From NCBI RefSeq assembly GCF_006874625.1, contig NZ_CP030034.1, forward strand, positions 744,001 to 808,000: a stretch of DNA of 64,000 nt, read 5' to 3'. Of this stretch, positions 12,175 through 50,030 are shown one piece after another. The DNA is from Bdellovibrio sp. NC01 (GTDB taxonomy: Bacteria > Bdellovibrionota > Bdellovibrionia > Bdellovibrionales > Bdellovibrionaceae). How positions within the stretch are numbered: position 1 is the first letter of the stretch; every line of letters starts with the position of its first letter. Both the position numbers and the translations under genes were made by a program. The notes beneath the pieces were generated by a model. The model did not search any database, was not told the DNA's origin, and saw nothing but the letters and a program-made list of their open reading frames with translations.

Positions 12175-12292
12175 AACACTTCCCCCACGAATTGAGTGTC
12201 TACTTTTATTCCATGAGCTAGTCAGCTCAATGCATAAGTGCTAGTCAGGGCGGGACTTTATGGGTAAGCCTCGTATTTTTCAAGGGACGAGA
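12175..12292. promoter_or_regulatory. Divergent control region between the pullulanase operon and lamB
   Basis: This 118-base space must hold both promoters. It has a direct repeat GCTAGTCAG at 12217-12225 and 12240-12248 (23 bases apart) and an overlapping inverted repeat GAGCT-AGTC-AGCTC at 12215-12228. On the minus strand a possible -35 TTGAGC (12230-12225) and -10 TAAAAG (12208-12203) are 16 bases apart, with the inverted repeat covering the -35 side. These are good operator candidates, but no regulator gene is nearby. Confidence 0.4.
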
Positions 12293-13603
12293 ATGAAAAG
12301 AATTATTTGGGCGCTATTATTTGTATTCTTAGGTGAACAATCTTTCGCATTAAATGCTGATTTTTTAGGCTATCTACGTGGTGGAACGGGCTTGAATCTT
12401 CAAGGTGGTTCTAAGGAGTGTTTCTATAACAACGGATTACCGGGTAATTTCCTACGTTTAGGGAATGAGTGTGATTTCTATACTGAACTTGCCTTGGTTT
12501 TTAATCACAAAACTGCGACCGCGGACGACCCAACATTTTTTAAGACGCAACTGCGCTTTGCTTACAGCTCTAAAGGTTTGCGTCAATGGGAATCCACGGT
12601 TGTTCCGGTAAATTCTAGCAACAACACAGTGAAAGTCCCTCAATCAGAAATTGAAGCTTTCGTAAAGGCCGGCGGTTTTTCTGAAGTCCCTGGCGAGTTC
12701 TGGGTCGGTAAAAGATTTTATCGTGACGTCGATTTGCACATCTTCGATTGGTACTACTACGCCGACATGAGTGGTGTTGGTGCGGGTATCGAAGCGTTGT
12801 CTGTGGGCCCAGGTCAGTTGGCGATTGCGCACATGATTCAAGCGAATGAAGACTTCAATACAACGTCAGTAGGTCGTCCGGCATTGAATGCGATTGATTT
12901 GCGTTACACATCTTTGAAAGTTGCTGACGATGCAAAATTAAATTTCTGGGGCGTATATGCATGGGCACCAGGAAGTTCTGATGGTTCGACAGAGTACGTT
13001 CCAACAAATGGTTACGTTCTTGCGACACGTTTGGATTCAGTCGCATACACTGGTCACAGCAATACAACTTTGATGTTCGGCCAAGGTGCGATGAAAGATT
13101 TCAACATCTACGGAAGTAGCGCAGTGAATTCTAACGACACTTCACAAAATCACGCATGGAACGTGCGCTTTGTTGAAGACTGGAGTCGTGATGTCACTGA
13201 TTCTTGGGCTTTCATGTTCGGTTTGGCTGCGAATTACGGTAGCAACGGCAAAGATCAATACGATATCGTTCAATGGCAAGAGATCGGCATTCGTCCGATT
13301 TATTTTGTCTCTGACAGATTTCAGTGGGTTTTTGAAACGGGTTACTCGCACATCAAAGATGAATCGGAAACTTTGTCGAACGGTCAACTGGCGGGTGATC
13401 GTGAACTTGCACGTGTGACAGTGGCTCCGCAGTTATCCATGAGCAAAAGTATTTGGGGTCGTCCTGTGCTTCGCGCCTACATGTCGTACTCGTTCTGGAA
13501 TAGCGCAAATGAGGACGTGAAATATATCGGAGCGAACGCGCCAACGTTTGCAAACAAATCATCAGGAATGACATTTGGCTACCAATTCGAAGCCTGGTTT
13601 TAA
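12293..13603 (+). CDS. lamB: Maltoporin (LamB family)
   Basis: An outer-membrane sugar channel of about 436 residues. The mature N-terminus shows the maltoporin pattern: FLGYLRGGTGLNLQGG, then a cysteine-bearing stretch and FLRLGNECDFYTELAL, closely like RLGNE...YxEL of other LamB proteins; the protein ends in an aromatic residue (EAWF) as barrels do. An in-frame ATG at 12260 exists, but the ATG at 12293 gives a proper signal peptide (MKRIIWALLFVF...SFA) and has GGGACGAG before it, so it is preferred. Divergent from the maltodextrin operon. A palindromic repeat begins inside its stop codon. Confidence 0.9.
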   Translation: MKRIIWALLFVFLGEQSFALNADFLGYLRGGTGLNLQGGSKECFYNNGLPGNFLRLGNECDFYTELALVFNHKTATADDPTFFKTQLRFAYSSKGLRQWESTVVPVNSSNNTVKVPQSEIEAFVKAGGFSEVPGEFWVGKRFYRDVDLHIFDWYYYADMSGVGAGIEALSVGPGQLAIAHMIQANEDFNTTSVGRPALNAIDLRYTSLKVADDAKLNFWGVYAWAPGSSDGSTEYVPTNGYVLATRLDSVAYTGHSNTTLMFGQGAMKDFNIYGSSAVNSNDTSQNHAWNVRFVEDWSRDVTDSWAFMFGLAANYGSNGKDQYDIVQWQEIGIRPIYFVSDRFQWVFETGYSHIKDESETLSNGQLAGDRELARVTVAPQLSMSKSIWGRPVLRAYMSYSFWNSANEDVKYIGANAPTFANKSSGMTFGYQFEAWF

Positions 13604-13707
13604 ACTTGCGATACGTGACCGCCTCCTGCGTTGCTTCGTCGTCGGCGTACATTTCGTACGCCTTCCTCCTTGCGCCTTGGATTCGATCACGTCTCACAAG
13701 TTTAAAA
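13598..13707. repeat. Palindromic repeat element, copy 1 (after lamB)
   Basis: Outer arms TTTTAAACTTG (13598-13608) and CAAGTTTAAAA (13697-13707) pair perfectly and overlap the lamB stop codon; inner arms ACGTGA (13613-13618) and TCACGT (13687-13692) also pair; the core is GGCGTAC-ATTTC-GTACGCC (13644-13662). The core and its flanks (CGTTGCT..CGTCG and CTCCTTGCGCC) are shared with the element after polA, while the arms differ. The rest of the space to dgcB shows only a small inverted repeat GCTAG/CTAGC (13816-13833). Confidence 0.75.
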
Positions 13708-47304: not shown

Positions 47305-49917
47305 ATGAAAAAGCTCTATTTAGTTGATGTCAGTTCTATGTTTTTTCGCGCCTTTTACGCGATCAGACCGCTGACGTCTCCGGCGGGTGTTCCAGTGAAC
47401 GCCGTCTATGGTTTCCTCAGCATGATTTCCAAACTCATGAAAGATGAGAAGCCAGAATACCTTGTGTTCTGTTACGACCGTAAAGAACCTTCTTTCCGTC
47501 ACGAAATGTACGACCAATACAAAGCGCACCGTTCAGAAATGCCTGAAGACCTTGGCGTGCAAATTCCTTACATCAAACGTTTAGCTGACGTGATGGGTGT
47601 GCCATCGCTGGAAGTGCCAACGTTCGAGGCCGACGACATCATCGGCACGTTAACAAAATATGGCCGCCGTCAAGGCATGGACGTAGTCATCGTGTCAGGC
47701 GATAAAGACTTCGCGCAGTTGATCGAACCTGGCGTTGTTCTTTACGACACAATGAAGGACATCAAATACGACTCTGAGGGAGCCTTCAATAAATGGGGCG
47801 TGCGCCCAGATCAGTTCATCGATTTCTTGGCGATCCTTGGCGACTCGGTCGATAACGTCCCGGGAGTGAAAGGTGTCGGCGAAAAAGGTGCGATTAAGTT
47901 GCTTGAACAGTTTAAACACCTTGAAGACATCTACGAAAACATCGACAAAGTTGAAAGCAAAAGCGTGAAAGAAAAGCTTCTTGCTTCTAAAGACAATGCT
48001 TTGATTTCCAAAAAGCTCGTGATTATTTCAACGGATATTCCGATCGATGAGAATCTAGAGACCTATAAACTTCGTCCTTGGAAGACCGAAGAGCTTCGCG
48101 CTTTATTGCGTGAGCTGAATTTCAAAAACTTCGAGAAAAATCTTTTAGGTCTTGAAGGCGAAGATAAACTTAAAGCTGACGGTACAAACTGGTATTCGGA
48201 AACTGCCAACCCTTCGCCTCAAAAAGTGCAAGTAGCAGCGGCTCCAGCAAATGTCAGCGATCCATTGACGGCCTCTATTGCAGAGATCACTGAATACACC
48301 GCTCAAGAATACCCTGAAGTGAAAATGTCGACTCGTGAGCTAACAGAAGTGTTGGCAGAGAATCAGCCTTTATGGGGCTTCCAAGACGAACGCGGGGTTT
48401 TCCTTGGTACTGACAAAGAAGTGATTTCGGTTTCCGATTCAGAAAACTTGGGTATCTTAACTGATACTTTCAATGTTCGCTGGAGCGGATTTGATCTGAA
48501 AGAATTCTGGCATAAGATCGGCGCAAAAACTCCGGTCGCTGCGTGGGATAGCATGCTTGGTGCTTACATTTTGAAGGCCGGTGATGCGACTGACTTCGCA
48601 AAAATGTACAACAAGTTTATGGGTGAAGAGTTGCGTGAAATGCCAACTCCATCACAGCTTTACAATTCGCATTTACATTTTGCCAAGACAATCCAAAAAC
48701 TTCTTAAAGAAGTTCACGGCGACAAAGTTTACAACACCCTAGAATTGCCACTCGCAAACGTCTTACTTGCGATGGAAAACTGGGGTATTCGCATCGACAC
48801 GGATCTTTTGAAAAAAGAAAGTGAAGATTTGGCGAAAGAAATCTCGGAACTTGAAACCGCAATTCACAAAGAAGCAGGTGAAAGTTTCAACGTCGGCAGT
48901 CCAAAACAATTGGGCGTCGTTCTGTTTGAAAAAATGGGTCTGCCAGCCGGTAAAAAAACGAAAACTGGCTATTCAACAGATGAAGAAGTGATGTTGGGAC
49001 TAGAACATCCGATTGCGAAATTGATTTTGAGCTGGCGTGAACTTTCAAAATTAAAATCGACATACGTAGATGCAATTCCAGCGTTGATCTCTCCAAAAGA
49101 TCAGCGTGTGCACACAAGCTTCAATCAAGCACTGACAACGACGGGCCGTCTTTCAAGTACTCATCCGAACTTGCAAAACATCCCCGTCAGAACAGAGCGT
49201 GGTCAGCGTGTGCGTAAAGCCTTTATCGCGGCTCCACGAATGAAGTTGATGTCTGTCGACTATTCACAAATTGAGCTAAGAATCTTGGCGCACATTTCTG
49301 AAGATCCAAACATGATGAAAGCCTTCGCTGAAGACCTAGATATCCATGCGGCAACCGCTGCGGAAGTTTATGGTATCGACTTGAAGGCTGTGACATCAGA
49401 ACATCGCCGTGCAGCCAAAGCTGTGAACTTTGGTATCGCTTACGGTCAGGGAGCATTCGGTTTAGCTGAAAACTTAGGTATTTCTCGTTCGGAAGCGAAA
49501 GATATTATCGATCGTTACTTCACGCGCTTTAAAAACGTGCGCGACTATATCGAAGGCACGATCAAATTGGCCCACGAACAAGGTTACGTAGAAACATTGT
49601 TCGGTCGTCGTCGTTACATCGATGAACTGAAGTCTAAGAACATGGCTTTGAAAAAATTTGGCGAGCGCGCCGCAATCAATGCCCCGATTCAAGGAACGGC
49701 AAGTGACATCGTTAAAAAAGCGATGATCGATGTCGCCGCAAAAGTTCCAGTGCGCATGCTGCTTCAAGTGCATGACGAATTGATCTTCGAAGACACAGAA
49801 GCAAACTTGCAAAAGTACTCTGCTGAATTAGTGAAGATCATGGAATCGGTGGTTGCTTTGAAGGTTCCGCTCAAGGTCAATTATGCCATCGGCGATAATT
49901 GGGACGAAGCCCACTAA
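47305..49917 (+). CDS. polA: DNA polymerase I without proofreading motifs
   Basis: An 870-residue repair and gap-filling polymerase. An N-terminal 5'-3' exonuclease (YLVDVSSMFFRAFYA, FEADDIIGTL, GDKDFAQL, GVKGVGEKGA) is followed by a shortened middle domain where the DxE motif of 3'-5' exonucleases should be but is not (LWGFQDERGVFLG), then the polymerase motifs TTGRLSSTHPNLQNIP, MSVDYSQIELRILAH, RRAAKAVNFGIAYG and LLQVHDELIFE. It should polymerise without proofreading, like the Bacillus and Thermus enzymes. GGGAG precedes the ATG. Confidence 0.96.
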   Translation: MKKLYLVDVSSMFFRAFYAIRPLTSPAGVPVNAVYGFLSMISKLMKDEKPEYLVFCYDRKEPSFRHEMYDQYKAHRSEMPEDLGVQIPYIKRLADVMGVPSLEVPTFEADDIIGTLTKYGRRQGMDVVIVSGDKDFAQLIEPGVVLYDTMKDIKYDSEGAFNKWGVRPDQFIDFLAILGDSVDNVPGVKGVGEKGAIKLLEQFKHLEDIYENIDKVESKSVKEKLLASKDNALISKKLVIISTDIPIDENLETYKLRPWKTEELRALLRELNFKNFEKNLLGLEGEDKLKADGTNWYSETANPSPQKVQVAAAPANVSDPLTASIAEITEYTAQEYPEVKMSTRELTEVLAENQPLWGFQDERGVFLGTDKEVISVSDSENLGILTDTFNVRWSGFDLKEFWHKIGAKTPVAAWDSMLGAYILKAGDATDFAKMYNKFMGEELREMPTPSQLYNSHLHFAKTIQKLLKEVHGDKVYNTLELPLANVLLAMENWGIRIDTDLLKKESEDLAKEISELETAIHKEAGESFNVGSPKQLGVVLFEKMGLPAGKKTKTGYSTDEEVMLGLEHPIAKLILSWRELSKLKSTYVDAIPALISPKDQRVHTSFNQALTTTGRLSSTHPNLQNIPVRTERGQRVRKAFIAAPRMKLMSVDYSQIELRILAHISEDPNMMKAFAEDLDIHAATAAEVYGIDLKAVTSEHRRAAKAVNFGIAYGQGAFGLAENLGISRSEAKDIIDRYFTRFKNVRDYIEGTIKLAHEQGYVETLFGRRRYIDELKSKNMALKKFGERAAINAPIQGTASDIVKKAMIDVAAKVPVRMLLQVHDELIFEDTEANLQKYSAELVKIMESVVALKVPLKVNYAIGDNWDEAH

Positions 49918-49921
49918 TCGT

Positions 49922-50014
49922 CGCCAGATCCTCGCCGATACCTTCGTTGCTCGTCGGCGGCGTACAGGTAGTACGCCTTTCTCCTTGCGCCTCGGTCTCG
50001 ACGAGGCTTTGGCG
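49922..50014. repeat. Palindromic repeat element, copy 2 (after polA)
   Basis: Core GGCGTAC-AGGTA-GTACGCC (49959-49977) with flanks CGTTGCTCGTCGGC and CTCCTTGCGCCTCGG, nearly the same as the element after lamB. Outer arms CGCCAGATCCTCG (49922-49934) and CGAGGCTTTGGCG (50002-50014) pair at 11 of 13 positions plus one wobble but are unrelated in sequence to the arms of copy 1. It begins 5 bases after the polA stop. Confidence 0.75.
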
Positions 50015-50030
50015 CCGGAAGAGTGACTGT

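Follow-up and report, generated by a model that had tools for sequence, protein, structure and literature searches.

The palindromic repeats that follow lamB and polA in Bdellovibrio sp. NC01 belong to a dispersed family of hairpins, ~100-110 nt long, in which a conserved head of ~50 nt sits atop an imperfect stem of ~25 bp whose sequence is private to its locus. Comparison of copies supports preservation of the folded shape while the stem sequence varies among loci. The family shows properties beyond those of the original prediction, namely placement at stop codons, a bottom-strand mismatch chemistry and a leading-strand orientation. The reading that we consider most likely, at roughly even confidence, is a folded element of single-stranded DNA that resembles REPs in its distribution and attC sites in its strand logic.

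Two copies of the element in the window

The window, that is, the whole 64-kb stretch of DNA analysed, carries two copies, each downstream of a gene on the same strand. Top denotes the strand on which the repeat was originally described, and bottom the complementary strand.

12260-13603, + strand: gene upstream of copy 1, LamB porin (PF02264)
13598-13707, + strand: copy 1, whole element, 3' of lamB
13598-13626, + strand: copy 1, 5' stem arm, locus-specific, overlapping the lamB stop codon (13601-13603)
13627-13643, + strand: copy 1, conserved head, 5' side, TGCGTTGCTTCGTCGTC
13644-13662, + strand: copy 1, apical hairpin GGCGTAC-ATTTC-GTACGCC
13663-13678, + strand: copy 1, conserved head, 3' side, TTCCTCCTTGCGCCTT
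13679-13707, + strand: copy 1, 3' stem arm, locus-specific, complementary to the 5' arm with mismatches
47305-49917, + strand: gene upstream of copy 2, DNA polymerase I (polA)
about 49919-50017, + strand: copy 2, whole element, 3' of polA, slightly wider than the 49922-50014 first assigned
49919-49942, + strand: copy 2, 5' stem arm, locus-specific, starting 1 nt past the polA stop codon (49915-49917)
49943-49958, + strand: copy 2, conserved head, 5' side, TTCGTTGCTCGTCGGC
49959-49977, + strand: copy 2, apical hairpin GGCGTAC-AGGTA-GTACGCC
49978-49993, + strand: copy 2, conserved head, 3' side, TTTCTCCTTGCGCCTC
49994-50017, + strand: copy 2, 3' stem arm, locus-specific

As the original prediction held, both copies carry GGCGTAC-N5-GTACGCC, CGTTGCT and CTCCTTGCGCC, and both hairpins start where a gene on the same strand ends, at its stop codon. 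The outer stems measure 24-29 nt and differ in sequence between the copies; the 29-nt arms of copy 1 are 83% complementary. The predicted fold of the lamB copy reaches -42.6 kcal/mol, compared with -22.5 ± 2.96 for shuffled sequences (z -6.8), and the polA copy alone gives a weaker signal (z -2.2). Predicted as DNA, the bottom strand is the more stable in both the lamB copy (-27.4 vs -22.0 kcal/mol for the top strand) and the polA copy (-27.5 vs -20.8 kcal/mol). No third copy was found within the 64-kb window, and no Rfam model matched the window at its gathering score.

A family dispersed across Bdellovibrionales

The pyrimidine-rich, conserved head encloses the apical hairpin GGCGTAC-N5-GTACGCC, and the exact pattern occurs five times in this genome. 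A blastn search with one copy as query retrieved 11 clear copies, and a covariance model trained on ten copies retrieved 12 strong copies (55-101 bits) with about eight weaker ones, so that the whole-genome search and covariance model originally proposed yielded more than the two copies of the window. The model has matches in 37 of the 60 relatives searched, with 0 to 28 per genome, and extends to other families of the order; a pattern scan of named genomes added matches in two Bdellovibrionaceae MAGs. The copies analysed in detail are the better-scoring matches of one ten-copy model and comprise 99 copies from 11 genomes, or 67 loci once orthologous sites are grouped by shared flanks, with orthology assigned by shared peptides and ORFs called mechanically. 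No conserved flanks outside the stem are evident among the copies, and the literature searched yielded no description of such a family for Bdellovibrio.

Several variants accompany the main form. A weaker subtype B ends in TGAAAAAGG...CCTTTTTGA, has a constant G.G mismatch and a longer head, and is bordered beyond these ends by locus-specific inverted repeats of 6-11 bp that match perfectly; it occupies loci L036, L038, L039 and L041 and the polA sites of genomes G001, G008, G018 and G010. L034, L035 and L135 contain an additional hairpin within the head (GCGTGG...CAAGTGC..GCACTTG), and L222 contains two nested ones, as if hairpins were growing on the element. A minimal form at L042 (G000:C1:2291177-2291215) has an A/T-tract stem, AAAAAGACC..GGTCTTTTT, and a head reduced to its base.

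Conserved pairing in stems of differing sequence

Stems were measured outward from a head anchor in the 99 copies, and arms that differ among loci pair within 88 of them across the 11 genomes, in agreement with the predicted combination of non-conserved sequence and internal complementarity; the additional copies thus share the paired arms of the window copies. Across 20 stem positions, the 83 ungapped copies have on average 16.9 that pair, compared with 5.8 of 20 when a 5' arm is combined with the 3' arm of another locus. The 5' arms of different loci are identical at 5.9 of 20 positions, about as expected of unrelated arms. The choice of anchors had itself favoured pairing, so the test was rerun with the offset search applied to the swapped arms as well; real copies then scored 17.5 on average and swapped arms 4.1. 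Stem length is confined too, the stem ending 25-29 nt from the head anchor in 47 of 55 loci.

Orthologous copies, compared over sequence pairs in which related pairs share events, contain 24 pair-sites at which both bases have changed with pairing kept, and 65 mismatches retained identically. A further 27 sites are paired in one copy only, 15 of them with a C.A or A.C mismatch in the other, which is G.T on the bottom strand. Since compensatory changes occur and the same mismatches are kept, the fold itself appears to be selected, and the original claim of a structure under selection is borne out.

Mismatch chemistry and orientation of the bottom strand

Beyond stem position 6, the top strands of 55 independent loci contain 58 C.A, 56 C.T, 14 G.T and 4 G.A mismatches, which read on the bottom strand as G.T, G.A, C.A and C.T, respectively. 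The binomial p values of this asymmetry are 2e-7 and 9e-13, and the excess of top-strand C.A and C.T therefore indicates that the preserved pairs are those of the bottom strand. The asymmetry is equal in leading- and lagging-oriented copies and is therefore a property of the element. Fold predictions with DNA parameters make the bottom strand the more stable in 53 of 59 loci (mean -26.0 vs -22.3), or in 50 of 59 when the arms are folded alone; with RNA parameters it is predicted to be the more stable in 42 of 59.

With the origin taken at dnaA and the terminus assumed to lie opposite, at half the genome length, the top strand is the leading strand in 87 of 99 copies, and the genes at the same loci are leading over 64% of their length. 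Independent loci away from the assumed terminus divide 51 to 3 in favour of the leading strand, so that in 51 of these 54 the leading-strand template is the bottom strand. The orientation of the element thus tracks replication more strictly than that of the neighbouring genes.

The gene upstream lies on the same strand as the element at 46 independent loci, and at 33 of these the base of the hairpin falls between -13 and +10 nt from the stop codon. The 32 adjoining stops comprise 16 TAA, 16 TAG and no TGA, compared with 24.5% TGA in neighbouring genes (p 1e-4); this absence may be a weak signal, given that TGA ends just 5 of 51 genes in the window. The element also lies just downstream of rnpB in four species, with subtype B at that site in two more. 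Near tRNA-Trp in seven species, it is antisense to an operon of tRNA-Thr/Tyr/Gly/Thr, a 397-aa ORF and tRNA-Trp, in which the arrangement suggests that the ORF is probably EF-Tu.

Gain and loss of copies

Near relatives differ in the presence or absence of the element, and decay can be seen at several sites: the head lost and the arms kept (L148 vs G011), the outermost arms alone remaining (L133 vs G022), and the 5' arm remaining (L176 and L180 vs G023). Other sites are empty without trace, as at L180 in comparison with G005 and G021 and at the polA and rnpB sites of relatives. A model in which the element enters the loop of an existing hairpin was considered and set aside, the element-free sites of relatives being mostly without a hairpin; the headless arms of G011 and the outermost arms of G022 are explained equally well by deletion from a full element. 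A few sites, the polA site of G010/G011 and L130, suggest but do not establish that an inverted copy of one flank arises at insertion.

Genome G012 contains tandem triplets with a period of ~100-115 bp (G012:C1:2255628-2255935 and 2398694-2398963) and no Y1_Tnp match; the 5' arms of its tandem copies are unmatched. At L240 (G022:C1:3567930-3568460), where another species has the element, a palindromic GGTACGCCGTACCTTTTGGGGGT repeat is present as two direct copies.

Relationship to known repeat systems

REP and BIME sequences associated with TnpA-REP (RAYT) resemble the present family in being multicopy extragenic palindromes with conserved bulges or mismatches, often near gene ends, and REPs are recognised as folded single-stranded DNA (PMC8266576). 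The family is a multicopy extragenic palindrome in the same sense, with 12 strong copies here and 37 of 60 relatives positive, and of the three kinds of element originally proposed, a REP-like family comes closest. The likeness has clear limits, as REPs are 20-50 nt long with conserved stems and an outside GTAG-type tetranucleotide, whereas the element here is ~105 nt long with private stems, a conserved head, tens of copies and no consistent Y1 partner. No conserved GTAG/GGAG-type motif was seen outside the stem; on the bottom strand, AGGAG(G) lies within the head, on the 5' side of the apical hairpin. Membership of the REP class fails on stem conservation and is not proven. ERIC, YPAL and similar repeats are imperfect palindromes of ~100 nt dispersed between genes, with ends conserved in all copies; the element shares their length, imperfection and intergenic position and differs in its locus-specific stems.

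The foldable strand invites comparison with attC sites, which are single-strand hairpins with conserved irregularities and have their foldable bottom strand on the leading-strand template (PMC11023631). In attC sites, however, the ends are conserved, the centre is variable and gene cassettes are flanked, whereas here the centre is conserved, the ends are variable and copies are dispersed singly. None of 24 genomes of the genus has an integron integrase passing the curated cut-off of TIGR02249, and the element ends are locus-specific, without the R boxes RYYYAAC / GTTRRRY, so that attC membership fails. Intrinsic terminators likewise form hairpins at gene 3' ends, but the element mostly lacks a T-run, has a conserved internal head and can precede a separate terminator.

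A strict REP family moved by the Y1 transposases (RAYT) that these genomes encode appears unlikely, although several associations point towards it. A Y1_Tnp gene is found about 90 bp from one copy, three other species have related elements 3' of homologous Y1 genes, and copies are present in 12 of 12 congeners with this Y1 subfamily, all five copy-free congeners being without it. Against this, G011 and G022 have the endA/Y1 pair without the element, stem sequence is not common to the copies (5.9 of 20 positions) and no conserved tetranucleotide is seen outside the hairpin. G012 and G017 contain 27-28 copies each, G012, a complete genome with 27, having no Y1_Tnp and G017 one; several genomes with Y1_Tnp have no copy. 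Orphan REPs are known, however (PMC6006769). The endA/Y1 pair is itself syntenic, and the adjacency of the element may therefore belong to endA. The Y1 transposase as partner is thus weakened by this synteny, by the element-free pairs and by the Y1-free G012, and the lead is suggestive only.

The gene in question, a Y1_Tnp/RAYT-like gene of 196 aa (L022:2832-3422; G000:C1, about 1181331-1181921, minus strand), is convergent with the endonuclease I gene endA; the element copy lies between the two, and the synteny of this pair extends to at least six species. A second Y1_Tnp gene (L023:1914-2804; G000:C1, about 614400-615300) stands between two flagellin genes and is flanked by a 41-nt inverted repeat (AGGGTGTCTGTCGTTTTTTTGGGTC...) of 93% complementarity, a separate small element. 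Inverted repeats of AAAAGGTACCTGCTTACTTTTGC adjoin Y1 genes in L082-L084.

Discussion

The main rival to a folded DNA strand is an RNA hairpin in the 3' end of the transcript from the upstream gene, which would block 3' exonucleases or affect translation termination at the stop codon, as reported for E. coli REPs near stop codons; we regard it as a possibility of limited probability. Position is compatible with such a role, and with the mRNA 3' stabiliser of the original prediction: the hairpin base sits at the stop codon in 33 of the 46 independent loci that follow a gene on the same strand, the element lies just downstream of rnpB in four species, and TGA is absent from the 32 adjoining stops. 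The sense strand, however, carries the non-pairing mismatches C.A and C.T and not G.U, and is predicted to fold worse. The direction of the element is tied to replication more strictly than that of the neighbouring genes. About one-third of copies lack an adjacent upstream CDS in the sense direction, and in seven species the element is antisense to the tRNA operon.

A transcription terminator of the intrinsic type, unusual in its conserved loop, would account for a strong hairpin at gene ends and for the A-tract/T-tract stems of some copies, but TTTT follows within 10 nt of the 3' arm in just 10 of 61 independent loci. In the present genome the element at endA is followed by an ordinary intrinsic terminator, AAAAAGCCGCAGAAGATGCGGCTTTTTT, and at the same site in two relatives the ordinary terminator stands alone; this part of the original prediction is not upheld, and we judge it quite improbable. 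Neutral palindromes, whose arms would be kept complementary by template-switch (quasi-palindrome) correction during replication and not by selection, agree with the very long, nearly perfect stems that run into the gene end at L063 and L071 and with the loss of arms and heads through short deletions between relatives. Such correction should erase mismatches, yet 65 are identical in orthologous copies; because mismatches are conserved, a purely mechanical correction is disfavoured. The mismatch types are moreover strand-asymmetric, and the unmatched 5' arms of the G012 tandem copies have been left uncorrected, making neutral palindromes very unlikely.

We prefer the single-stranded-DNA reading because it explains both the mismatch asymmetry and the orientation bias, which the mRNA reading does not. 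The preserved object would be the hairpin that the bottom strand forms as single-stranded DNA, and a putative structure-specific DNA-processing protein would recognise its shape and conserved head. Candidates would be an HUH/Y1-type or other recombinase or a nuclease, with precedents in TnpA-REP reading REPs and the integron integrase reading attC bottom strands. Copies with the foldable strand on the lagging-strand template may be lost or disfavoured, giving rise to the orientation bias; the attC bottom strands of chromosomal integrons also lie preferentially on the leading-strand template (PMC11023631). Other observations weigh against a folded DNA strand: IS200/IS605 insertion is reported into the lagging-strand template (PMC6006769), unlike the leading-template location of the better-folding strand here; the family has no recombinase or transposase linked to it; and the tight sense-direction placement at stop codons is not predicted by a purely DNA-level model.

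A more specific proposal, which we advance tentatively and regard as rather doubtful in its full form, is a previously undescribed single-stranded-DNA hairpin system of Bdellovibrionales, in which a putative enzyme would read the head together with a stem of fixed length and free sequence, and would move or maintain the element at gene ends with its foldable strand off the lagging-strand template. The host lineage is predatory, and such an element was not found described there in the literature searched. Elements that keep shape and change sequence are hard to detect from sequence repeats alone. The family offers a clean case, as covariation, mismatch chemistry and replication orientation are each readable from genomes and jointly point to a folded DNA strand, not RNA. 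In the proposed hairpin system, each new copy would obtain or construct a stem private to its locus. Confirmation of the folded DNA strand would place the element beside REP, attC and IS200/IS605, the few known cases of bacteria handling folded single-stranded DNA.
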